Below are positions 49,781 to 62,735 of a stretch of 64,000 nucleotides of DNA, in pieces. Positions within the stretch are counted from its first letter, which is position 1. Each line of letters begins with the position of its first letter. Source of the DNA: Streptomyces capitiformicae (GTDB lineage Bacteria > Actinomycetota > Actinomycetes > Streptomycetales > Streptomycetaceae); NCBI RefSeq assembly GCF_002214185.1, contig NZ_CP022161.1, positions 5,959,486 through 6,023,485 on the forward strand, given 5' to 3'. Made by a program: the position numbers and the translations under genes. The notes below the pieces were generated by a model. It searched no databases and had not been told where the DNA came from. It worked only from the letters and a program-made list of their open reading frames with translations.

Positions 49781-51742
49781 TCAGGTGTCGGAGGCCGGTG
49801 GCTGCCAGGTGGCACGGACCAGGGCCCGCTCGGTGGCGGAGAGGTAGACGGCCGCGGCGAGCCAGGCCCGTGCGTAGCGGTCCGGGTCTGGCTCGTCGAT
49901 GCGGCCGAAGACGTCACGGGTACGGCGGTCGGCCTCGGCGGTGAGGGTGGTCGCCAGGTCGGCGGCCGCCTGGAACCCGCTGCGCCGCAGGGCCGCCCGG
50001 CCGCCGCCACGATCGCCGTCGCGGGCGGGTTCGGCGACGGCCCGGCGGCCTCCGGACACGGCGACCTCGACCAGTCGGCGCAACCGCCACAGCGGGGCCT
50101 CCGCGAGCGGGTCGACCGGGACGCCGTCGAGGCCGGTCGGGGCGGGCAGGGCGTCCGGCGGCGGGAAGTGCGTGCCCTGGAGACGGTCGTAGCCCAGGTC
50201 GGCGTGGCCCTGCCAGTCGGTCGGCAGCCGCAGCGTCGCCTCGGCGTCCGACACCGGGCCCACCGCGAGCGGGCGCAGCGTGGCGGCGCGGTCGGCGTCC
50301 AGGCGGCCGATCACACGCAGCCGCAGACCGGGCCGGGAGGCGAGCTGACGGAAGTTGGCGGTGTGGGCGAGATCGGGATGGCCGTTGGCCGGTGCCAGCC
50401 GCACCAGCGGGCCGTCCACGACCGGTTGCCCGGCAGGTCCCAGCTCGCGGGCGAGCAACTGGTCCCCTGCCGCCCCCACGAGGACCACGTCACAGCCGAT
50501 CGGCTCACGCAGCGCCTGCTCACCGCGCTCCGGGTCGGCCCCGGGGCTCCCCGTGAGCCGTTCGGCGACGGCCTCGGCCAGGGGGCGGGCGAAGAGGGCG
50601 GCGAGCGGGCCCGCCGTCCAGGGCAGACCGGTGACCGGAGTGGCCCGTACGCTCTTGCCGGAGCCGAGACGGCCGTCCGGGGAGAGCGTGGCACCCGTGA
50701 TCAGCAGCCCGCCACGGGCGAGTTGGGCATGGTTGAGACTGCCCGAGCCGAGCGCGACCGTGGCCGTGGCGGCGCCCCGGGCGCGGGCCGGACCGCCGGG
50801 CTTGACGTCGGCGAGGGAGAACCAGCGTCCGTCGTCGGAGACGACATGGGTGACGACACCGCCATAGCCGGTGGCCGCGATCACCGGCTCCCGGAACACC
50901 CCGTGGACCCGCAGGCCCCCGCCCGGCCGGTAACCGCGGCGGGCGGTGCCGACGAGACCCGGATCGGGGTCCGCCGCTGCCAACAGGCCAGTGGTGAGGA
51001 GCAGTTCGCGCAGGCTCGCGACCAGATCGGCGAGCCGGTGGCCGTCGTGGCGGGCCCGCGCGCCGCGCAGTCCGCGGACGACCCGTAGGGCTGCCGCCTC
51101 GGCGCGGTGCAGCCCGGCGAGCCGGGCCGTGTGCGCCGCCCGCAGCAACTCCGCCTGCGGCACGGCGCCGGCGGCCGGCACCCCGGCGGCGAGCACGGCC
51201 GCGGTGGCGGTCCAGAGGCCGGTGGCGGCGGTTACCTGGGCCTTGGTGGGGCCGGTGGCCCCGGCGGCTCCGGTGGGTCCAGTGCGTTCGGCGGAGTCGG
51301 TGGCTCCGGGAGTGGCGGCCTTCGTAGCACTACTGTTCTCGCGGGCCTTGGAGGCTGGTTCGCCCGCTGATACGGCGTCACCCTCGACGTCATGCGCGAC
51401 GGTCGCCGTTTCCGCGTCGTCCGTGGCCTCCGGTGCGGGCATGGCCTCCGCGTCGGCCACCGGGCAGGCGCCCAGGACCGCGGCCCGGTGCAGGCATCGG
51501 GGGGCGAGCAGGCAACTGCACACCGCCTGCCCGGCGTCCGTGACCGCGCCCGAGGGACCCGGCGTGAGGGTGACCTCGGCGTCCTCGCCGCACCGGATGC
51601 GCAGGACACCGCCGTCGGCCGTGACGGGCACGGCCGCGTACGACTCGATCGCGGCGTCCAGCTTCTTGCGCAGCCGGGAGGTCAGGCTCTCGACGGCGGT
51701 GGCGACCACCTCGGGTGCCACCGGGGGCAGTTCGGCGTTCAT
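49781..51742 (-). CDS. SWIM zinc-finger protein of a MoxR-VWA locus (YehQ-like)
   Basis: 653 residues. The SWIM motif CSCLLAPRCLHRAAVLGAC (CxC...CxH, near residue 75) binds zinc and often DNA or protein. A low-complexity linker of about 90 residues follows (Ala/Thr/Gly-rich), then a large domain of unknown fold (GYRPGGGLRVHGVFREPVIA; ALGSGSLNHAQLARGGLLIT; RPGLRLRVIGRLD). Its ATG overlaps the upstream stop by 4 bp (ATGA). In E. coli the SWIM protein YehQ likewise follows the VWA protein YehP, so it is the probable adaptor of this system. It is the last gene of the operon. Confidence 0.8.
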   Translation of the reverse strand: MNAELPPVAPEVVATAVESLTSRLRKKLDAAIESYAAVPVTADGGVLRIRCGEDAEVTLTPGPSGAVTDAGQAVCSCLLAPRCLHRAAVLGACPVADAEAMPAPEATDDAETATVAHDVEGDAVSAGEPASKARENSSATKAATPGATDSAERTGPTGAAGATGPTKAQVTAATGLWTATAAVLAAGVPAAGAVPQAELLRAAHTARLAGLHRAEAAALRVVRGLRGARARHDGHRLADLVASLRELLLTTGLLAAADPDPGLVGTARRGYRPGGGLRVHGVFREPVIAATGYGGVVTHVVSDDGRWFSLADVKPGGPARARGAATATVALGSGSLNHAQLARGGLLITGATLSPDGRLGSGKSVRATPVTGLPWTAGPLAALFARPLAEAVAERLTGSPGADPERGEQALREPIGCDVVLVGAAGDQLLARELGPAGQPVVDGPLVRLAPANGHPDLAHTANFRQLASRPGLRLRVIGRLDADRAATLRPLAVGPVSDAEATLRLPTDWQGHADLGYDRLQGTHFPPPDALPAPTGLDGVPVDPLAEAPLWRLRRLVEVAVSGGRRAVAEPARDGDRGGGRAALRRSGFQAAADLATTLTAEADRRTRDVFGRIDEPDPDRYARAWLAAAVYLSATERALVRATWQPPASDT

Positions 51743-54700
51743 CGGGTCTCTCCGCGGAGGCGATCGCCCACCCAGCGGGCGAGGGCGAGGGGACTGAGGG
51801 CGGCAACGGGCATGCCGGCCGCGACGAGCTGCTGGGCGACCGGCACGGAGTAGCGCGGCGTACCGGTGTGGTCCAGGGCGGCACAGCCCATCAGGTGCAC
51901 CCCGGAGCTCGCGAGGGCCCGTACTTCGCCGAGGAGCCCGCCCAGCGGGTAGCCCTCCTCGAAGTCGCTCACGACGACCACGAGGGTCCGGCTGGGCACG
52001 GTCACCAGGGAGCGGGCGTGCGCGAGCCCGGCCGCGATGTGCGTGCCGCCGCCCACCCGTACCTCCAGGAGCAGCGACAGCGGGTCGTCCACCCGGTCCG
52101 TCAGGTCGATCACATCGGTCGAGAACGCGAGGAAGTGGGTGGACAGGGTGGGCACTCCGCCCAGGACGGCCGCGGTCAGCGCCGACCAGATGACGGACGC
52201 CTCCATCGACCCCGACACGTCGACCACCAGGATCAACCGCCAGTCCGCCTCCTTGCGGGAGCGGGTGCTGAACACCGGCCGCTCCGGTACGACCACGGTC
52301 CTGCCGTCGGCCGTGCGGCGCGTGTGCGCCAGGTTGGCGCGCAGCGTGCGCGGCAGGTCGAGCCGACCACCGGGACGGCGGGTCGGGCGCGGTGTGGCCA
52401 GACCCGTGAGGGCCGGGCGCATACGGGTGGCGAGTTCCTTCGCCAACTCGTCGACGAGGCGGCGGACGAGCGGGCGCAGCTTGGCCAGTTGCTGTTCGGG
52501 CATCCCTCCGGCCAGGGACAGCACCGAGGTCAGCAGGTCGACCGACGGACGGACCGCCCTGGGGTCGAGCTCGGCCAGTACGTCCGTACGGCCTTGATCG
52601 GCGGCCCGCGCCAGTACCTCCTCGCGGACCTCCGCGCCGAACAACGCGTCCAACTCCTCGGCCCACTCGCGGGCCGTGGGGAACGAAGCCTCCTGACCGC
52701 CGCCCTGGCCCTGCCCGCCACCCCCGCCGAGATCCGAGGAACCCTCGCCCCGGCCGGTGCCGTACAGCTCGTCGAGGGCGTGCGCGTAACGGCGGGCGTC
52801 CGGAGGGAGCTTCTCGCTCTCCCGCCCGAGCAGCAGCCGCCAGCGGTCGGTGGGGGAGAGGTGGAGGACGGAGGGGGCTCCGGCCGCGGCCACCTCATCG
52901 ACGGCCTCTTCGGCCTCGGCGCACCCTGGGACCGCGGGGATCTCCACCCCGGTGCTCTCGGCCTGCCCCGTCGTGTCGTTCATCCGCACCGGCAGCCGCA
53001 GGGAGTCGACCGCCGCGAGGCCCGCCGTGTCGGCGGCCGTCCACAGGGCGAGGAGTGCCGGTGAGGCGGTGAGTGACAGGTCGAGGCGGTCGCCGAGGCG
53101 TTCGCTGACGGTGCTCAGAAGGCGGTCGCGGCCGGCCGGGCTGAGCGTGTCGAAGCCGCCGCGCAGCGCGGGCAGCCGATCCAGGAACCCCTGGTCGGTG
53201 AGCGTGTCGACCCGGTCGAGCAGTGGGGCCAGCGCGTTCGGCGCCGACTGGAGCAGCGGGGCGGCACCGCTGAGCAGCCCGGTGAGCCGGCGGGACAGTG
53301 CCCGGCGCCCGTCGGGGCCGGTGGCGGTGTCGACCCAGCCGGCGGCACGCGCGCCGAGGGTGTCGGAGTCGTCGAGGTCGAGCAGGACCCGGGCGGCCAG
53401 GGCGGCACCCTGGACGAGCGGGGAGCCGGTACGGGCGAGGGCGGCCAGGGCGTCGTCCAATCGCAGCCCCAGGCGGTGTTCACCGGCCCGCGAGGCCAGC
53501 GCGATGAGCGCGGCCGCGTCCTCCGGCTCGTCGCTGCCCGCCAGGCCGGGCAGCGCCCGGACCGCCGCCTCCAGCAGGTCGGCGGCCAGTGCGGTGGCCG
53601 CCTGCCTGCCCTCGGGCGTGGTGCCGGGGAGGTGCCCCCGGCGCAGCGCCTCCATCAAGTCGAGCGCTTCGAGGAGTTCGGGGAGCGTGGCGGCGGCCGG
53701 GAGCACGGCCGCGGCGTCGGTCAGGCGCTCGGCGACCAGCGCGGGCAGGTCGCAGCGGGCGGCCGCCCGAAGTCCGGCGAGGACGAGCGCACAGGTGGGC
53801 CCGCCGTCCGCCGACTCCCGGCGGAAGGCCTCCCGCAGGGTGCCCTCGGCGGCCAGGGCGGCCGTCACACCCCGTATCCCGGCCAGGTCGAGCCGTACGG
53901 GAACGGCCGGTGTCCACGACAGCCGCCACCGGGTGGTGAGCGCGGTCCCGTCGCCCGTGCCGGCCACCGCCACGGCCTCGCCGTAGCCCGCGCCGCACAC
54001 CTCGAGTCGCTGGAGCAGGATCTCGCGGCGGCCGTCGAGGGCGGAGCGGAGCGGGTCGAGCCGGACCTCGCGGGAACCGGAGTCGTCCGGGCCCGGCAGC
54101 CGCAGCGCGGCCAGCTCCGCCTCCACGGACGGGCCCAGCCCCGAACGCGGTGTGCCCGGCGCGATCCGGCCGCGGTCCGTGCCGACCAGGACCACCTCGA
54201 GCGCCCGCGCGAGGGCCCGGCCACGGCCGAGCGGCTCGCCCTGCCCCAGCACCGTCGTCAGCGCCTCCAGCACTTCGCCCCGTCCCGGGGCGGGGAGCCC
54301 CCGAATCCGGGCCAGGTCGCACGCCATCCGCAGGGTCTCGGTGGCCTCGCCTGTCCCCGCGGTGTGCCCGGCCGCGCGCAGCTCCCGGCACACATCGGTG
54401 ATGGCCCGCGCGGCGGCGCCGTGCAGCGACTCGGGGTCACCACCGGCCGCGAACACCGCCTGCTGCCAGCGAGGGTCCCGGATGCCCGCCGGGTAGCCGG
54501 ACCGGGAGTCCAGCAGATCGAAGGCGTACGGCACGAGCGAGGTGACCACCGGCGGCGACCCCTCGACGACGGATTCCCCGACCGTCGATGCCGATGCCGA
54601 TGCCGATGCCGATGCCGATGCCGAGTCCGAGGCCGAGTCCGATGCCTCGCCACCCGCACGCGGCCCCGGAACCACATCCTCCGGCCCGGCGCCGTCCGTT

Positions 54701-55482
54701 CCGGCAGTGTGTGTCCCGGCATCCTCCGCTCCGGCCCTGTCCGTCAACGCCGGGGCGTGGAACGCTCCGATGACGGCCGCGACCTTGCGCCCGCACGCCG
54801 CGGCACGGGCGACCGTGTCGCGCATATGGGCCTCGCGGGCCAGGTCCACCGGCGGCACGCCGCCCGCCGACTCCGCGTCGCGACGCAGCGCCCACCCCAC
54901 GCCGAGCGCGGCGCGGCGGACCGCCTCGGGGGCGCAGCCGGGAGCGAGAACCTCCACGCAGCGGTCCCACAAGTCGTCACCGTCACGGCCACTCCCGGCG
55001 ACGGAGAGCGCGTCCGCGAAGGCGGGGGACGGGGCAACGGCGGTGGCGTCGGCCACCGCGTTCCGCGTGTCGTCCACCGGTGCGGGGCCATTTCCCGGAG
55101 CAGCCATCAGCACCTGCGCGTTCCACCGAGGGTCGCCCATCGGCAGGTCGCAGCACACGACTTCCGCACCCCGCTCCCGCGCCCAGCGGATCGCGGCGAG
55201 TTCGGGGGAGAAGTCGGCGAAGGGGTAGAAGCCGAGCCGCCCGTTCTCACCGGCCCCGGCCAGCGCGACCGGGGCGAGCGTGCCCGGGTCGGCCACATGC
55301 GGGAGCCACGGCTGGAAGTCGGCCGGCAGCTCCACGCAGACGACTTCCGCGCCGGAGGCGTCCAGCAGGGCGGGCACGGCCGCGGCGAGGGCCGGGCTGT
55401 GGTGCCGTACGCCCAGCAGATACGGCACCGTGGAGTCGGCGAGGGCCATGACGGCCGCCCGCGGGTCCTGAACGAGCGTCAC
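51739..55482 (-). CDS. DUF5682-VWA fusion protein (YehM-YehP-like)
   Basis: 1247 residues in one open frame. Residues 1 to about 790 match DUF5682/YehM: YLLGVRHHSPALAAAVPALL, FYPFADFSPELAAIRWARER, VAAVIGAFHAPAL, VPYAFDLLDSRSGYPAGIRD. Residues from about 840 match the YehP type, with a Gly/Gln-rich linker and a C-terminal VWA domain (MIDAS LILVVDVSGSMEASVIWSAL near residue 1087, the Thr of VGGGTHIAAGL, and VVSDFEEGYPLGG). In E. coli these are two genes; no stop separates them here, although MNDTTG near residue 830 could be an internal start. A (SA)n run near residue 285 comes from GATGCC repeats. The GTG at 55482 overlaps the moxR stop. Confidence 0.82.
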   Translation of the reverse strand: MTLVQDPRAAVMALADSTVPYLLGVRHHSPALAAAVPALLDASGAEVVCVELPADFQPWLPHVADPGTLAPVALAGAGENGRLGFYPFADFSPELAAIRWARERGAEVVCCDLPMGDPRWNAQVLMAAPGNGPAPVDDTRNAVADATAVAPSPAFADALSVAGSGRDGDDLWDRCVEVLAPGCAPEAVRRAALGVGWALRRDAESAGGVPPVDLAREAHMRDTVARAAACGRKVAAVIGAFHAPALTDRAGAEDAGTHTAGTDGAGPEDVVPGPRAGGEASDSASDSASASASASASASTVGESVVEGSPPVVTSLVPYAFDLLDSRSGYPAGIRDPRWQQAVFAAGGDPESLHGAAARAITDVCRELRAAGHTAGTGEATETLRMACDLARIRGLPAPGRGEVLEALTTVLGQGEPLGRGRALARALEVVLVGTDRGRIAPGTPRSGLGPSVEAELAALRLPGPDDSGSREVRLDPLRSALDGRREILLQRLEVCGAGYGEAVAVAGTGDGTALTTRWRLSWTPAVPVRLDLAGIRGVTAALAAEGTLREAFRRESADGGPTCALVLAGLRAAARCDLPALVAERLTDAAAVLPAAATLPELLEALDLMEALRRGHLPGTTPEGRQAATALAADLLEAAVRALPGLAGSDEPEDAAALIALASRAGEHRLGLRLDDALAALARTGSPLVQGAALAARVLLDLDDSDTLGARAAGWVDTATGPDGRRALSRRLTGLLSGAAPLLQSAPNALAPLLDRVDTLTDQGFLDRLPALRGGFDTLSPAGRDRLLSTVSERLGDRLDLSLTASPALLALWTAADTAGLAAVDSLRLPVRMNDTTGQAESTGVEIPAVPGCAEAEEAVDEVAAAGAPSVLHLSPTDRWRLLLGRESEKLPPDARRYAHALDELYGTGRGEGSSDLGGGGGQGQGGGQEASFPTAREWAEELDALFGAEVREEVLARAADQGRTDVLAELDPRAVRPSVDLLTSVLSLAGGMPEQQLAKLRPLVRRLVDELAKELATRMRPALTGLATPRPTRRPGGRLDLPRTLRANLAHTRRTADGRTVVVPERPVFSTRSRKEADWRLILVVDVSGSMEASVIWSALTAAVLGGVPTLSTHFLAFSTDVIDLTDRVDDPLSLLLEVRVGGGTHIAAGLAHARSLVTVPSRTLVVVVSDFEEGYPLGGLLGEVRALASSGVHLMGCAALDHTGTPRYSVPVAQQLVAAGMPVAALSPLALARWVGDRLRGETR

Positions 55483-56648
55483 CGGAGGTTCTCCCGCAGG
55501 TCCCAGAGGCGGCGCCACATCGCCGAGCCGTCCTCGGCGCGACGGCGGACCGGGCCGTCCCAGTAGCCGAGCAGACGGGCATGGTCGGCCGGGTCGTCCT
55601 TGCGGACCACGCCCAGGAGGTGGCCGGGGACGAGGTCGAGGGCGTCCCCGCCGGGCAGGTAGGCGGCGGCGACCCCGAGGGACGCGGCGACCTGGACGGC
55701 TTCGGCGGTGGACATGACGGTGCCGGGCCGCTCCACGTCCCACCCCTCGGCGGACCGTCCGGCGCGCAGATCGCGGAAGACGGTGACCAACACGTCGAGC
55801 ACGGCGTCGTCGACGCCGAACGCCGCACCCGCCCGCTCGACGGCCGCCGTGGCCTGCCGCTTGACGAGCACGGTCTCGGCGTCGACGTCCGCGATGGGGT
55901 GCACCGTCTCGAAGTTGAAGCGGCGCTTGAGCGCGGCGGACATCTCCGAGACGCCCCGGTCCCGCAGGTTGGCCGTGGCGATGACGGTGAACCCGGGCGC
56001 CGCCGCGACCTGGGCGTCGTCCGTGCCGGACAGCTCGGGCACGCTCACCCGCCGGTCGGACAGGATCGACACCAGGGCGTCCTGCACCTCGGGCAGACAG
56101 CGGGTGATCTCCTCGACCCGCGCCACCCGGCCGGTTCGCATGGCCCCGAGCACCGGGGAGTCGACCAGCGCCTGCGGGGTCGGGCCCTGGGCGAGCAGCA
56201 GGGCGTAGTTCCAGCCGTAGCGGAAGGCGTCCTCGGTCGTACCGGCGGTGCCCTGCACGGTGAGCGCGCTGGTGCCGCACACGGCGGCCGACAGCAGCTC
56301 GGAGAGCATCGACTTGGCCGTGCCGGGCTCGCCGACGAGCAGCAGGCCACGCTCACCGGCGAGGGTGACCACGCACCGCTCCACCAGGGCGCGTTCCCCG
56401 ACGAACTTGGGGGTGATCACCAGCTTGTCGGGCAGTGTCTCGTGCGGCTTGGGCAGCTTCAGGGCGTCGCCTCCGCTGCCGCAGACGAAGGTGACCACGG
56501 CGCGCGGCGTCAGTCGCCAGCCCGGCGGCCGGGGGCCCTCGTCGTGGGCGGCGAGGAAGGCGAGTTCGGTCGCGTGGCGCTCCTCGGCGGGCAGGGTCTG
56601 CCGGGCCGGACGGTCAGTCGCCGTCGTCGCCATGTCGGTCGAGGTCAT
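55479..56648 (-). CDS. MoxR-type AAA+ ATPase (YehL-like)
   Basis: 389 residues. Walker A is LLLVGEPGTAKSMLSELLSA, Walker B VARVEEITRCLPEVQDALVS, sensor 1 TVIATANLRDRG, and the arginine-finger region SAALKRRFNFETVHPIAD. MoxR ATPases work with VWA proteins to insert metals or remodel target proteins. AAGGA lies 5 bases before the ATG at 56648. A 23-bp tandem repeat array fills the spacer to the previous gene. The next gene begins inside its stop codon (GTGA). Confidence 0.9.
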   Translation of the reverse strand: MTSTDMATTATDRPARQTLPAEERHATELAFLAAHDEGPRPPGWRLTPRAVVTFVCGSGGDALKLPKPHETLPDKLVITPKFVGERALVERCVVTLAGERGLLLVGEPGTAKSMLSELLSAAVCGTSALTVQGTAGTTEDAFRYGWNYALLLAQGPTPQALVDSPVLGAMRTGRVARVEEITRCLPEVQDALVSILSDRRVSVPELSGTDDAQVAAAPGFTVIATANLRDRGVSEMSAALKRRFNFETVHPIADVDAETVLVKRQATAAVERAGAAFGVDDAVLDVLVTVFRDLRAGRSAEGWDVERPGTVMSTAEAVQVAASLGVAAAYLPGGDALDLVPGHLLGVVRKDDPADHARLLGYWDGPVRRRAEDGSAMWRRLWDLRENLR

Positions 56649-56690: not shown

Positions 56691-56773
56691 GGTGTGATCG
56701 GGCGTGGACCAGTGGTGTGATCGGGCGTGGACCAGTGGTGTGATCGGGCGTGGACCAGTGGTGTGATCGGGCG
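56691..56773. repeat. 23-bp tandem repeat, 3.6 copies, upstream of moxR
   Basis: The unit GGTGTGATCGGGCGTGGACC plus AGT occurs at 56691, 56714 and 56737, with a partial fourth copy to 56773. It lies in the 203-base spacer between the giant gene and moxR, starting 43 bases upstream of the moxR start codon. Copy number probably varies between strains. Confidence 0.9.
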
Positions 56774-56851: not shown

Positions 56852-59800
56852 TCAGCGGCGGCGGCCCCGCTTGCGCACTTGCAGCTCCTCGAAGCGGGGA
56901 GCGTCGCCGTCCTGGACGCGCTGCCATGCCCTTCGGTACAACTCGGCGTGCGGCTCGGTCGGGACGACCACGCTGAACGTCGGGGTCTCGCCGTGCATCA
57001 CCTCGGCGTACAGCGGGAGCTTCCACCGCTCCAGCGGAACGCGCGGTGACGTCAGCTCGACCCAGCCGCCGGGCAGGAAGAGCGAACGCGACGCCCTGGT
57101 CCGGGTGGCCTCGACGACCAGGTCGGTGGCCGCCAGCTCGGCGCGGGCCGCCTTGATGCGGGCCGGCTTCCACCCGGTCCACCGGGCCGTGAGACGGTCG
57201 GTGGGGTCGGGCATGGCGAGCAGCATCAGATAGACCGTGGCGGCGTCCTCACCGATGCCGTACTCCTTGGCCACCTCGGTCACCAACTCGGGAACCGAGC
57301 GGCTCGGGTCCTGCGGCCACCAGACGCCGTCCTTGTCGCGCTCACCGGCCAAGGGATCGCCCGGGTCGGCGAGCAGCGCCGCGAACCGGGGGGAGCGGGC
57401 CAGGCGCAGTGCCACCTCGGCGGTGAAGGGCCGCTGGTCGTCGATGCGCAGCGCGGGCAGATACGGGTCCTGGCCCGCCTCGTCGAGCAGGGCGACCCTC
57501 AGGCCCGGCGCCGGCTGGTCGTCATGAGTGGCCAGGACGACGGCGCCGTACCGCTCGAAGCCCTTGCCGGTCTCGGCCGGGGCACCCGCGGTCTTCCGGA
57601 ACTTCGGGAGGTTGATGTACCGCCCGAGGTCGAGCACCAGGCCGGGGTGGGCGAGGCGTCGGCGTACGGCGCTGAGCGCGGGCGGCAGCGCGGCCCGGAT
57701 CGGGTCGCCGGCCGGCAGCCGGTGGGCGAGCCAGGCGGCCAGGGCGACCGTGCCGACCAGAGTCTCCGCCGTGAACCCGACCATGTCCCCGCCGACGGGC
57801 TTGACCCGGTCGCCGCTGACGGCCCAATCCAGGTCCTGGGTGAACCGGGGCTCGGCGGCCGGGTCCAGCAGCGCGGGCAGCGCCTCCCGTACCTCCCACT
57901 GGGAGTGCTTGACCGCGCGTACCGCTTCGCCGAACAGGGCCTCGGGGACGGGCGTCCGCTTGCCCACCCTGCTGTTCCAGACCTCGGCTGCCGCCGCCGC
58001 GTCCGGACCCTCGGTCCACAGCCGGGCGGGGTCGGCGGGCAGCAGCGCGGCGACCACGGCGACCCTGATGTCGCCGTCGACACGGGCGAGTTCGCTCTTG
58101 GCGTCGGCGGCGGCCGCCGCCTTCACCCCGATGAAGCCGCGTGCCTCCGCCGTCAGGAACGTCCGCTCGTAGACATCGACCTGCGGCAGACCGGCCACGA
58201 TCAGCCGGGCCATCGTCTCGGTGACACCGGTGAGCCGGGCGAACTCTTCGGCGGCCTCCGGGAACCAGGGCGCAGGCCCCCGCGTGTCCAACTCGGCCAG
58301 GAACGCGCCGAGTCGGCCCGCCTCCGTGTCCTCGCCCAGCGGCGACGACTTGCGCAGCGTGTAGGGCTCGGGGATCTCGAACCGCCCGGTCGGGTCGTGG
58401 AAGAAGCCGGTGAAGAGGTAACCCTCGTCGGACTCGTGCGTGGACTCGCGCTCCACGAAGACGATGAAGGCACCGCCGCCCAGCGGCAGCAGCCCCCGCC
58501 ACGCGCCCTCTCGCCAGTCACCCGATGCTGAGCGCAACAGGTCGGCCGCCAGGCTCAGTTCCACCTTGCGCCACCGCTGGGGCGTGGCGGTCGCGCCCAG
58601 CCCCAGGGCGTCGAACTCGCCGAGCAGCGTGCGCAGTGCCTCGCGGTGCTTCCCGGAGGTCGTGCCGGCCGCGGCCCGGAACGACAGAGCCCTGACGCGG
58701 TCGACCAGCGTCTCCATCTCCGGCTGCCCCGAATGCAGTCCCGGGCCGTCGAGGTGGAGGCGAGCCGTCCGCTCCTCCGGTACGGCGGTGTCGGTGAGCC
58801 CGGCGGCCCGGGCCATCACCCGCAGGGCGCGGAAGACGGTGGTGACCTCCTTGTCGCGGTTCCACCAGTAGCCGTTGACCACTCCGAGGCCGTTGAGTGC
58901 CTCGAGGAGCACGACATCCGGGACCCCGACCGGACCCTCGTCCTCCAAGTCGCCGTCGAGGGCCCGGGTGAGCCGGGTCGCCGCCGCGTCGAGGACGGCC
59001 TGCTGACCGGCGGCGTGCCGGACGACTCCGGCGATGCCCGCGACGAGCGCGTCATGGGTGACCGGCAGCAGTGCGCGGATCGCGTCGGGCAGCGCCTTCT
59101 CGTCGGGCTGCGCGGCGGCCTTCAGCAGGGCCGCCGAGGTGTCCCGGTCGATGCGCCGCAGCGCCTCGGAGCCCTCCGGGTCACGAGGCGTCATGCACTC
59201 CCAGTACTGCACCGGCGGCAGCAGCAGTGTGCCCTCGCCGAAGACACCGGGCGTACGGTCCGTCTTGGTCACCGCGGTGACGACGCCTTCGGAGTCGACC
59301 AGGTCGAGCTGCCAGCTACCGCGGACGACGGCGACGGCCCGGTCGGCGCCGGGGAACACCACGAGCGCGGACGGCCAGGGCATATCGGCGGGAAGGGTCA
59401 CGGTGTGACCCGCGAGGTCCTCGGTGCGCCGGGAACCGTCGGGCAGTCGCACTTGGCGCAGACCGATCAGCCCGTCCACGGGCGCCGATGCCGGGGTGGC
59501 GCCGGGTGTCGGGGACGGGCCAAGCCAGCCGCCCTGGAAGGTGCTGCCCTCGGGAGCGTCGCGCAGCGCGTCGGTGAAGAACGCGGGCATGCTCCTGCGT
59601 CCGAGCTCACCCGTGACCGGGTCGTACTCGAAGAAACCGCTCGTCTCCCCGTCCTCGGCGGGGGTGTGCCACAGCCAGTACGAGACGCCGTCGGAGACCA
59701 TCGGGCGCTCCTCGGGGACGGTGGTGTCCCCGGCGTGCAGCACACCGCTGCCGGTGGCCCGGCCGCCACCGGGCAGGGGAAGGGTGATCGGGAAGTCACC

Positions 59801-61765
59801 CCGATACCAGTCCATCTGGGTGCCCCGGGTACTGTCCGGGCCCTTCAGGCTCAGCTCCCGGTCGGCGCGCGTGTGCCAGTAGCCGCGCAGGCCGTCGTTG
59901 CGGGTGCGCCAGTGGACGAGCAACTCGCCGTCCACGTGGTGGAAGCCCGGGTCGCCCCAGCTGTCCTTCACCGCGGCGCGCAGATCGTGGGTGAGGACCG
60001 TGCCCTCGGCGCCGATCACCCGGGCCTGGGCGGCGCCCGCCACGATGAGGTGGGGCCAGGCGTCGGCGACGACGATGTCCTCGACGTCGTTCTTGGGGAC
60101 GAGGTCGGCGGTCGCCTCCTCCCAGGCGGGCCAGCCCAGTTCGTCGACGATGCCGGTCCTCAGGGTGCGGGCCAGCACCGGGGCGAGGTCGGTGGCGACG
60201 GCCTCGCGCACCTCCTCCTCGGCCAGCGCCAGCGCCTTGGCGGGCAGCCACTTCAGCCGGGTCAGCGCGTCGGGCAGCTGGGGCAGACCGACGACGGTGA
60301 ACCGCCGGACCACCGCACGTACCCACTCCGCGAGCATCGGGCGCCCGCCCGGGGACGCCGCCAGCAGCCGGATCGCCCGCAGACCGTGCACGTTGTCGCC
60401 GAGGTGGTCGGCACCCTTCCGGAATGCCTCGTGGAAGCGGGAATCGGCGGCCAGCGACAGCAGTTCGCGCTGCCCCTCGCCCTTGGCCCACGCGGCGAGC
60501 AGCAGCATGGAGTTCTTCCCGGGGGCCGCCACGGGCACGTCCAGCGACAGCAGCTGATCGAGCAGGTCGAGGTCCTCGGTGGCCCGCAACTCGCCACCCG
60601 ACGCGGTGAGTTCGGCCCGCAGCACCTCGGCGGTCCGGTCCACCAGCGCGTACAGCTCCGCCAGCCGCTCGGTGGCACAGCGCGACTCCTGGCGGAACTT
60701 CAGGAACCGCTGGAGCCAGCCCGCCGTACCGTCGCTCGACCGCTCCTCCGCGGGCAGCGACGTGTCCCACAGCCCCGCTAGAGCACCGGACGCCTCCAGC
60801 ACCCCCAGCCACAGCGCGGGCATCTCGTCGTCCTCCACCGACGGGACGATGTCCAGCAGAGCGCCACGCACCCGGGGCTCACGCCCGGCGAGCGCCACCA
60901 GAGCCGTACGGTGGCCCTTCCACCAGCCCGCCGCCGCCCGCAGCGTGGCGGGCAGACCCAACAGCTCCGCCAGATACTCCTGCTCGGTGAGATCCGCGTC
61001 CCGCCCGGCGGCGCGGGCCAGCTTGCGCAGGTCGTTCGCCATCTGCGCCGACGGCGGCAGACCGCCCGCCGTGCGGCGCAGGCACAGCCGGGTGAAGCGC
61101 CGCAGCGCCTCCTCGGCCGGCACCCGCGCGGCCAGCTCCTTCGCATACGCCGACAGCACCTTCACCGGCAGCGCCCCGGCCAGGGCGAACTCCAGGAACA
61201 CGGCGTCCAGCCGCTCCTCGTCCACCACCAGCCCGTGCTCGGCCTCGGCCTTGCGGGCGCGGGTGAACAACTGGGCCGCGTATGCGGCGTTCTCCTCGGC
61301 GAGGAACACCCGTCCGGCCTGCTCGTAGAACGTCGGCAGGAAGTGCGGCACCGAGGCCGCCAGCCGGGTGCCCAACTCCAGACAGGCGTCCATGGCCGCC
61401 TTCGGCTTGGACTTCGCCTGCCGGGCCACCTTCTCCAGATCCGGCACGACACCCAGCGCGCGGTGACCGTCCTCCGGGTGGTGCACCAGCACCCACTCCG
61501 GGAACCCCAGCGACTGGCGCAGCCCGAGGCCCACCACGGCCGGCTCCGCGTCCCGCTCCAGACCGAGGAACCCGGTGGCCAGGTCCTCCGCCGCGCCCAG
61601 CTCCCCGGCCACCAGCCGTACCACCACCCGGTCGTCCAGGCCCGGATGACGGTACGTCCGCGCGGTCAGTGGCACCGCCCGCTCCCCGGCTCCCTCGGTG
61701 TCCGGCGGCAGCACCCCGCCCGCCGCCAGCAGTTCCTCGTACGACACCCGCGTCCCCCCGCTCAT
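56852..61765 (-). CDS. Giant protein of the MoxR-VWA locus, function unknown
   Basis: 1637 residues. The N-terminal 500 are mostly helical, with repeat-like character (LYALVDRTAEVLRAELTASG; LLDQLLSLDVPVAAPGKNSM). The centre has Trp- and Gly-rich beta segments (HVDGELLVHWRTRNDGLRGY; MVSDGVSYWLWHTPAEDGET), and the C-terminal 300 residues end in LYAEVMHGETPTFSVVVPTE. I see no nucleotide-binding or catalytic motif. Streptomyces homologues are often labelled DNA-binding, which the sequence does not show. It occupies the place of the large DUF4132 protein YehI of the E. coli locus. Its ATG overlaps the DUF4132 gene stop by 4 bp. Confidence 0.75.
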   Translation of the reverse strand: MSGGTRVSYEELLAAGGVLPPDTEGAGERAVPLTARTYRHPGLDDRVVVRLVAGELGAAEDLATGFLGLERDAEPAVVGLGLRQSLGFPEWVLVHHPEDGHRALGVVPDLEKVARQAKSKPKAAMDACLELGTRLAASVPHFLPTFYEQAGRVFLAEENAAYAAQLFTRARKAEAEHGLVVDEERLDAVFLEFALAGALPVKVLSAYAKELAARVPAEEALRRFTRLCLRRTAGGLPPSAQMANDLRKLARAAGRDADLTEQEYLAELLGLPATLRAAAGWWKGHRTALVALAGREPRVRGALLDIVPSVEDDEMPALWLGVLEASGALAGLWDTSLPAEERSSDGTAGWLQRFLKFRQESRCATERLAELYALVDRTAEVLRAELTASGGELRATEDLDLLDQLLSLDVPVAAPGKNSMLLLAAWAKGEGQRELLSLAADSRFHEAFRKGADHLGDNVHGLRAIRLLAASPGGRPMLAEWVRAVVRRFTVVGLPQLPDALTRLKWLPAKALALAEEEVREAVATDLAPVLARTLRTGIVDELGWPAWEEATADLVPKNDVEDIVVADAWPHLIVAGAAQARVIGAEGTVLTHDLRAAVKDSWGDPGFHHVDGELLVHWRTRNDGLRGYWHTRADRELSLKGPDSTRGTQMDWYRGDFPITLPLPGGGRATGSGVLHAGDTTVPEERPMVSDGVSYWLWHTPAEDGETSGFFEYDPVTGELGRRSMPAFFTDALRDAPEGSTFQGGWLGPSPTPGATPASAPVDGLIGLRQVRLPDGSRRTEDLAGHTVTLPADMPWPSALVVFPGADRAVAVVRGSWQLDLVDSEGVVTAVTKTDRTPGVFGEGTLLLPPVQYWECMTPRDPEGSEALRRIDRDTSAALLKAAAQPDEKALPDAIRALLPVTHDALVAGIAGVVRHAAGQQAVLDAAATRLTRALDGDLEDEGPVGVPDVVLLEALNGLGVVNGYWWNRDKEVTTVFRALRVMARAAGLTDTAVPEERTARLHLDGPGLHSGQPEMETLVDRVRALSFRAAAGTTSGKHREALRTLLGEFDALGLGATATPQRWRKVELSLAADLLRSASGDWREGAWRGLLPLGGGAFIVFVERESTHESDEGYLFTGFFHDPTGRFEIPEPYTLRKSSPLGEDTEAGRLGAFLAELDTRGPAPWFPEAAEEFARLTGVTETMARLIVAGLPQVDVYERTFLTAEARGFIGVKAAAAADAKSELARVDGDIRVAVVAALLPADPARLWTEGPDAAAAAEVWNSRVGKRTPVPEALFGEAVRAVKHSQWEVREALPALLDPAAEPRFTQDLDWAVSGDRVKPVGGDMVGFTAETLVGTVALAAWLAHRLPAGDPIRAALPPALSAVRRRLAHPGLVLDLGRYINLPKFRKTAGAPAETGKGFERYGAVVLATHDDQPAPGLRVALLDEAGQDPYLPALRIDDQRPFTAEVALRLARSPRFAALLADPGDPLAGERDKDGVWWPQDPSRSVPELVTEVAKEYGIGEDAATVYLMLLAMPDPTDRLTARWTGWKPARIKAARAELAATDLVVEATRTRASRSLFLPGGWVELTSPRVPLERWKLPLYAEVMHGETPTFSVVVPTEPHAELYRRAWQRVQDGDAPRFEELQVRKRGRRR

Positions 61766-62658
61766 GCGTCCTTGCCCCCCTCGATCTCGCGTCCCGCGTA
61801 CAGGGCCGCGGCCATCCGCATCCCCTCCGACCAGGCCACCGGGCCCACCTCTCGCAGCGGCAGGGCGCGGCCGTCCGGGTCGTGCCAGGTGAGGTTGCCG
61901 AGCTCCACATCGCCGTCCCAGTACGGCTCCCCGATCCACACGGAGGCCTCCACCGTGTGCCCGCCGTCCCGTACCCGGGCCGTGGCGTAACCACCGGACA
62001 CCCGGTATCCGAGTGACGAGGCGCGCGCGGCGAGGGCGAAGCGGGAGCGGAACGAGCCCCCGGTGAACTCCCGGACCTGGGTGGCCTTGGCGGCGAGGTC
62101 GTCCGGCCGCCGCCAGATCGCCCGGTGTATCTGCTCGACGCGCTGCACGATGCCCAACTCGGCCGCGAACTCCCGCAGGTCGTCCAGGTCCGGCAGCAGC
62201 ACCGGATGCGGCAGTGTCACCGTGCGCGGGGACAGCCGGACGGTCTCACCGTCGAGGTTGACGATCCGCAGCTCGCCGGAGTCGGTGGCACCCCGCAGGA
62301 AACCGACCTCGTCCGGGTCGTCACCGACCACCGCCAGGTCGCGCAGCGCGGACTGCCACGCCTCGTCCGGCCACACCCGGGCCAGCAGGCCGGTGGGTAC
62401 GGGCAGTGACGACACCATCCAGGCGTCGACCTGCGCGACGCACGCCGCGGCATGCCGATCCAGCCACTCGGCGAACCTCCGCAGCCGGTCCACCTCCGGG
62501 TGGTCCTTGAGCGCGCGCGGCAGCGACTTCAACTGCCGCCCCGCCGACCGGCCCGAGGTGGCCCGTGCCGCCACCCGCCCCTCCACAAGGGCGACTTCAT
62601 ACCCGTCACCCGCCGACAGCCAACCCACGACCCCCGCCTTCCGCGTCCAGAGCACCAT
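61762..62658 (-). CDS. DUF4132 (YehI/MolR-like C-terminal) protein, first gene of the operon
   Basis: 298 residues. ARVWPDEAWQSALRDLAVVG, GELRIVNLDGETVRLSPRTV, VTLPHPVLLPDLDDLREFAA and ELGIVQRVEQIHRAIWRRPD are the pattern of DUF4132, the C-terminal domain of E. coli YehI. No Cys/His metal site or ATPase motif is visible. The ATG at 62658 has no ribosome site; instead the leader has a GCCGGG/CCCGGC hairpin and a 10-codon upstream frame. A PafBC-type promoter lies 55-77 bases upstream. It opens the five-gene operon ending at 49781. Confidence 0.75.
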   Translation of the reverse strand: MVLWTRKAGVVGWLSAGDGYEVALVEGRVAARATSGRSAGRQLKSLPRALKDHPEVDRLRRFAEWLDRHAAACVAQVDAWMVSSLPVPTGLLARVWPDEAWQSALRDLAVVGDDPDEVGFLRGATDSGELRIVNLDGETVRLSPRTVTLPHPVLLPDLDDLREFAAELGIVQRVEQIHRAIWRRPDDLAAKATQVREFTGGSFRSRFALAARASSLGYRVSGGYATARVRDGGHTVEASVWIGEPYWDGDVELGNLTWHDPDGRALPLREVGPVAWSEGMRMAAALYAGREIEGGKDA

Positions 62659-62672
62659 GAAGAAAGCACAGT

Positions 62673-62705
62673 TCAGCCGGGGAAATCCCGGCCCAGTGCG
62701 ACCAT
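62673..62705 (-). other. Ten-codon leader frame, possibly leaderless
   Basis: ATG at 62705-62703 begins MVALGRDFPG and ends with TGA at 62675-62673, 14 bases before the DUF4132 start. The ATG lies 7 bases after the -10 hexamer, where transcription should start, so it could be translated from a leaderless mRNA end. Not in frame with the next gene. Confidence 0.35.
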
Positions 62706-62712
62706 GTGCGGA

Positions 62713-62735
62713 ACGCTAGCGGCGACCACTGACAA
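62713..62735 (-). promoter_or_regulatory. PafBC (RecA-NDp/ClpR) type DNA-damage promoter
   Basis: On the minus strand: TTGTCAGTG (62735-62727), 8 bases, TAGCGT (62718-62713). This is an exact match to the motif TTGTCRGTG-N8-TANNNT, recognised by the PafBC activator that runs the LexA-independent DNA-damage response of actinobacteria. It faces the DUF4132-MoxR operon, with the expected start about 47 bases before the first gene. Confidence 0.8.

Follow-up and report, generated by a model that had tools for sequence, protein, structure and literature searches.

A conserved, predicted PafBC-type DNA-damage promoter precedes a MoxR-DUF5682-VWA-SWIM-DUF4132 operon in Streptomyces capitiformicae

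We analysed a 64,000-nucleotide stretch of the Streptomyces capitiformicae chromosome (NZ_CP022161.1, forward-strand positions 5,959,486 to 6,023,485; hereafter the window), in which five minus-strand genes lie behind a 23-bp sequence resembling PafBC-type (RecA-NDp) DNA-damage promoters. These genes, A to E, encode in order a short DUF4132 protein, a 1637-residue protein, a MoxR-type ATPase, a DUF5682-VWA protein and a SWIM protein (Table 1). An earlier note on this DNA had described 4-bp overlaps everywhere except at moxR, and this is the arrangement we found, with overlaps at A/B, C/D and D/E and a 203-nucleotide gap before moxR that varies among relatives. The same note gave the content as MoxR, VWA, SWIM and DUF4132; MoxR, VWA and DUF4132 are present, but the fourth gene is a DUF5682-VWA fusion, the second lacks a Pfam match, and the SWIM match of the fifth scores 15.9 bits, below the Pfam cut-off of 19.6, with its CxC-x5-CxH signature intact.

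A motif scan placed TTGTCAGTG-GTCGCCGC-TAGCGT, an exact match to the damage-promoter pattern, on the minus strand at 62713-62735. The match is thus perfect and correctly oriented, as had been claimed, and it is the only one in the window, which holds no second TTGTCAGTG-N8-TAGCGT site with up to two mismatches allowed. None of 100 shuffled windows held an exact match, and 13 held at least one match with two or fewer mismatches. The site also fits exactly the M. tuberculosis consensus tTGTCRgtg-8nt-TannnT given in PMC5656591. TTGTCA is not a normally spaced −35 element, because the first T of the 9-mer lies only 17 nucleotides upstream of the −10 hexamer; according to PMC11804915, a PafBC-specific −26 promoter motif replaces the −35. 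A LexA-type box (GAAC-N4-GTTC) was found within 300 bp upstream in 0 of 91 loci, nor does the window's own upstream stretch contain one.

Table 1. Features of the operon and its upstream region, in window coordinates
Feature	Coordinates	Strand	Remarks
Predicted PafBC-type (RecA-NDp) promoter	62713..62735	-	9-mer TTGTCAGTG 62727-62735, spacer GTCGCCGC 62719-62726, -10 TAGCGT 62713-62718
Possible stem-loop in 5' leader	62666..62699	-	single-sequence folds
Gene A, short DUF4132 protein	61762..62628 (listed open reading frame to 62658)	-	Pfam PF13569, 102.7 bits; probable GTG start, from alignment
Gene B, 1637-aa protein	56852..61765	-	no Pfam match; most named relatives annotated DNA-binding protein
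Perfect 23-bp tandem repeat, 3.6 copies, in B-moxR gap	56691..56773	unstranded
Gene C, MoxR-type AAA+ ATPase (AAA_5)	55479..56648	-	Pfam match
Gene D, DUF5682 (hydrolase-like N-terminal part) fused to VWA_CoxE	51739..55482	-	DVSGS metal-site motif in VWA_CoxE
Gene E, SWIM zinc-finger-like protein, 653 aa	49781..51742	-

To compare relatives, we aligned 98 upstream regions (duplicates included) without anchoring them on the motif. On average, conservation is 0.95 at the twelve fixed positions, against 0.69 for the spacer and 0.53 for other upstream positions. The distance from promoter to first gene had been judged sensible on the basis of a start at 62658, an ATG that is not conserved in this alignment; the TG of codon 11 (GTG 62628), by contrast, is invariant and stands behind a conserved GG. 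Translation of gene A thus probably begins at GTG 62628 rather than at ATG 62658, and the interval from motif end to start codon becomes 84 nucleotides rather than 54. The leader in between contains a possible stem-loop that adjoins the promoter downstream, and relatives form different stems at the same place. Thirty-eight non-redundant leaders, folded singly, gave a mean z of −1.4 against mononucleotide shuffles, and RNAalifold returned no consensus structure for the leaders.

Gene A has a match in 61 of 150 Streptomyces genomes, that of the window included, and the nearest named locus is in S. tailanensis (96% identity in gene A). At 66 other Streptomyces loci we searched for TTGTCRGTG-N8-TANNNT from 200 nucleotides upstream to 40 nucleotides inside gene A. 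The motif is present upstream of these orthologues, which the earlier note had proposed to scan: 64 of the 66 loci carry it with at most three mismatches (exact, 33; one, 24; two, 6; three, 1), the other two having four, while a reversed-pattern control never fell below three mismatches. In a second set of 80 named loci, which overlaps the first and spans Streptomyces, Kitasatospora, Nonomuraea, Streptosporangium, Acrocarpospora, Catenulispora and others, every locus matched with two or fewer mismatches (exact, 55; one, 20; two, 5; control minimum, three).

Relatives of both MoxR and VWA accompany gene A in 50 of the 66 stretches; two lack only a recognisable MoxR, nine are cut by contig ends and five have neither partner. 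Among the partnerless loci, L123 and L126 lack the motif (four mismatches) and L124 has a poor, displaced one (two mismatches). The motif tracks the partner genes imperfectly, because the partnerless L079 and L080 keep a good copy (one mismatch). Another of the 66 loci, L125, was represented by its own gene at 34% identity, and its complete-operon label derives from its neighbour.

A second family, by its sequences the one containing Nonomuraea and Streptosporangium, carries TTGTCAGTG-N8-TANNNT with at most two mismatches in 11 of 14 close orthologues and at most three in all 14. At 16 distant DUF4132 loci the corresponding counts are 0 and 2, and the reversed control reached three mismatches in 3 of the 30 loci, never fewer.

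We then considered the motif across the single-contig, 11-Mb host chromosome, which holds 15 exact and 49 one-mismatch sites (64 in total) and none of the reversed pattern. Genes were assigned to 11 of the 15 exact sites. Five precede repair genes, namely a DEAD helicase, a uracil-DNA glycosylase (UDG), ruvC, a RecD2-HHH protein and recA, whose match has its site 64 bp upstream; the others precede this operon, a MoaA-like gene, and genes for an extracytoplasmic function (ECF) sigma factor, a DUF7691 protein, a TPR-like protein and an ABC transporter. By heuristic gene calls, which gave no next gene for 13 of the 64 sites, 38 sites have a candidate gene start within −60 to +100 nucleotides, and in 11 a gene starts 5-11 nucleotides after the −10. 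A Pfam scan of 20 genes behind motif sites recovered RuvC, UvrA, UvrB, uracil-DNA glycosylase, two UvrD-type helicases, an IMS (dinB-type) polymerase, DnaG, DnaE, MgsA/RarA and others. Fourteen of the 20 are repair or replication genes, a share that is biased because only the first ten were taken in list order, the second ten having been chosen partly for their repair-like look. The chromosome also encodes a PafC-type protein (HTH_PafC, WYL, WCX) and a PafB-like protein (WYL, WCX) near the Pup ligase gene pafA, and a DSHCT helicase gene neighbouring this region has a one-mismatch site at its 5' end.

The exact site L010 (genome 5845218-5845240) lies 45 nucleotides before the MoaA-like molybdenum-cofactor gene, a curious position given the old link between MolR and molybdate.

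The same switch recurs at a paralogous cluster 1.67 Mb along the host chromosome (L172, 1659000-1678900), where genes for MoxR and DUF5682, together with a stretch resembling VWA (tblastn identity 39%, without a Pfam match), diverge from a SWIM-DUF5691 pair, with one motif site per direction at 1670903 and 1670964. This cluster is near-core, occurring in 95 of 101 Streptomyces genomes. In the best-scoring 30 of the 95 genomes with the gene, the 9-mer occurs in both divergent directions of the intergenic region at all 30 loci. Measured against the TAG form in these 30, the SWIM side is exact in 2 and has one mismatch in 28, and the MoxR side has one mismatch in 5 and two in 25; the reversed control has at least four. 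In the second family, a SWIM-side site, mostly TTGTCGG, is present with at most two mismatches at 18 of 30 loci and with at most three at 23, and no MoxR-side site was seen among the 30.

Taken as a whole, this comparative evidence strongly supports the earlier prediction of a PafBC/RecA-NDp promoter inducible by damage. The element at 62713-62735 is very probably a genuine promoter of this type driving the five-gene operon, and damage control of the operon is well supported at the level of sequence; from this we infer induction and dependence on PafBC. One published observation weighs against this view: an initial search described in PMC9380542 pointed to a lack of conservation of the M. smegmatis PafBC motif in S. 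venezuelae, and according to the same paper a LexA-independent PafBC response has yet to be demonstrated in Streptomyces. The remark on conservation is at odds with the 64 sites in the present genome; it also differs from PMC2375139, where 67 S. coelicolor genes have recA-type motifs, and from the RecA-NDp promoter of the UV-inducible SCO6735 (PMC5087735). Our motif findings bear on the statement in PMC9380542 about the PafBC response, and the Streptomyces PafBC regulon looks ready for testing.

The promoter type itself is already known. Motif, spacing and strand are those of the PafBC/RecA-NDp regulon, and the genome shares its company of recA and repair genes and its regulator genes; what differs is the target, since we did not find a MoxR-DUF5682-VWA-SWIM-DUF4132 operon as a PafBC target in the literature. 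The open-licence literature yielded no link between such a system and PafBC or actinobacterial DNA damage (the supplementary gene table of PMC2375139 could list some), nor a function for Yeh-type systems of this composition. PMC5656591 reports that M. smegmatis lacking pafBC has, under standard growth, 1.6-1.7-fold lower levels of the similarly named MoxR1 and MoxR2 and of a von Willebrand factor protein.

By family content and order, the operon is the actinobacterial counterpart of E. coli K-12 yehI-yehLMPQ, in which yehI (DUF4132), yehL (MoxR), yehM (DUF5682), yehP (VWA) and yehQ (SWIM) follow the gene of the WGR protein YehF. The Pfam families DUF4132, MoxR AAA_5, DUF5682 and VWA_CoxE are common to both and in the same order, followed here by the SWIM-like gene with its sub-threshold match. 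Here, however, DUF5682 and VWA are fused, DUF4132 forms a short separate protein, the 1637-residue gene B is extra and the regulator differs. Genes A and B gave no direct alignment to YehI, and Pfam scans of genes A to E returned no WGR match.

Damage regulators have been reported for relatives of this system. Two papers (PMC3978071 and PMC11039860) list molR among E. coli SOS/LexA-regulated genes. PMC8533742 reports that depletion of DdrO in D. radiodurans strongly upregulates the drA0165-drA0166 operon, which bears a DdrO motif, and that mitomycin C raises the level of its DUF4132 protein DRA0166 in wild type and not in an irrE mutant. There too a mitomycin-induced DUF4132 gene answers to a damage regulator, the comparison extending to that gene alone; its control by DdrO/IrrE is unlike the PafBC-type promoter here. 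With DRA0166 under DdrO/IrrE and molR placed among LexA-regulated genes, Yeh-type or DUF4132 systems may be under the control of three unrelated damage regulators.

Gene D, whose N-terminal part is hydrolase-like, resembles EreA/HopBA1/RRSP-type enzymes. Its DUF5682 motifs of histidine and glutamate (GxRHH, E, GxxH) are invariant in 24 aligned rows and common to E. coli YehM, and we take them to be motifs of the EreA/ChaN/TraB (Tiki) hydrolase superfamily. With moderate evidence, DUF5682 appears to resemble EreA/TraB-fold hydrolases, and we infer catalysis. NorQD and RavA-ViaA likewise pair a MoxR AAA+ protein with a VWA partner and act on different targets; we know of no SWIM, DUF5682 or DUF4132 partner in either.

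The best reading of these data is a damage-inducible, AAA+-driven hydrolase or remodelling machine. DNA damage would yield single-stranded DNA, which PafBC would bind; as reported in mycobacteria, and as the motif and the pafB- and pafC-type genes suggest here, PafBC would then adapt housekeeping RNA polymerase to the promoter, and the operon would be expressed alongside recA, ruvC, uvrA and uvrB. The products would presumably assemble into an actinobacterial Yeh-type machine, in which the MoxR ring (C) would act through the VWA adaptor fused to the EreA/TraB-like domain (D), and the SWIM (E), DNA-binding-like (B) and DUF4132 (A) partners would probably choose the substrate. Its likely task would be to use ATP to remodel or cleave a substrate located on damaged DNA. 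The machine could conceivably act on protein complexes there, an assignment to which we give slightly less than even weight; the earlier suggestion that it repairs, remodels or guards DNA-bound proteins is a guess. A rather doubtful extension is that Yeh-type MoxR systems form an overlooked, widespread arm of the damage response, separately recruited by PafBC, DdrO and LexA, in which the AAA+ ring feeds VWA-held substrates to an EreA/TraB-fold hydrolase as a functional analogue of DNA-protein crosslink processing of the p97-SPRTN type.

The promoter could instead be damage-responsive while the machine serves against phages or plasmids, single-stranded DNA from infection triggering PafBC and MoxR-VWA arming a hydrolase-like effector. 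We consider this somewhat unlikely. The DUF4132 version is patchy among the genomes searched, and D has the enzyme-like character noted above. PMC7159879 describes MoxR-vWA ternary systems whose effectors are fused to the VWA protein and treats them as conflict systems; like the operon, they combine MoxR and VWA with an enzyme-like domain on the VWA side. However, SWIM, DUF4132, DUF5682 and YehL are absent from the main text of that paper; profile scans of the operon proteins detected no ternary component (VMAP, iSTAND or others), the bpMoxR match (21.2 bits) falling below its cut-off of 27; no PADLOC match was better than E 0.046; and the paralogous cluster is near-core, unlike most defence systems.

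Less likely again is a damage-induced maturation chaperone, in which MoxR-VWA would supply an enzyme required under damage with its metal or cofactor, in the way that NorQD serves nitric oxide reductase. Metal insertion by such pairs, the connection of E. coli MolR with molybdate (PMC8533742) and the MoaA-like gene behind another exact site are consistent with this, but the operon has no dedicated enzyme gene, D contains a hydrolase-like part, and moeA, moeB and similar molybdate genes are reported in PMC8533742 as not differentially expressed on DdrO depletion. A chance match, or a standard housekeeping promoter free of damage control, is a highly improbable account of the motif: the −10 is ordinary and looser matches arise in shuffled windows, yet the element is conserved in sets of 66 and 80 loci with clean controls, its 9-mer is too near the −10 for a −35 hexamer, and the genome is enriched in such sites.

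For the damage-inducible machine, the presence of two separate versions tied to a DNA-damage promoter, alongside the damage control published for Deinococcus DUF4132 and E. coli molR genes, turns an orphan into a candidate repair or defence factor, and gives a little-understood ATP-driven machine its first clear, testable role, that of acting upon DNA damage. Should DUF5682 prove to be a hydrolase that a MoxR ring drives, MoxR-VWA chemistry would gain a new use.

Two further observations concern the host chromosome. A second DUF4132 match lies at 1599269-1599787 (L183), and the genome-wide list places neither an exact nor a one-mismatch motif close to it. At 2588859 and 2591424 (L004 and L129), neighbouring DUF7691 genes each start 6 nucleotides after a PafBC-type motif, and DUF7691, an unknown family, may therefore belong to the damage regulon.
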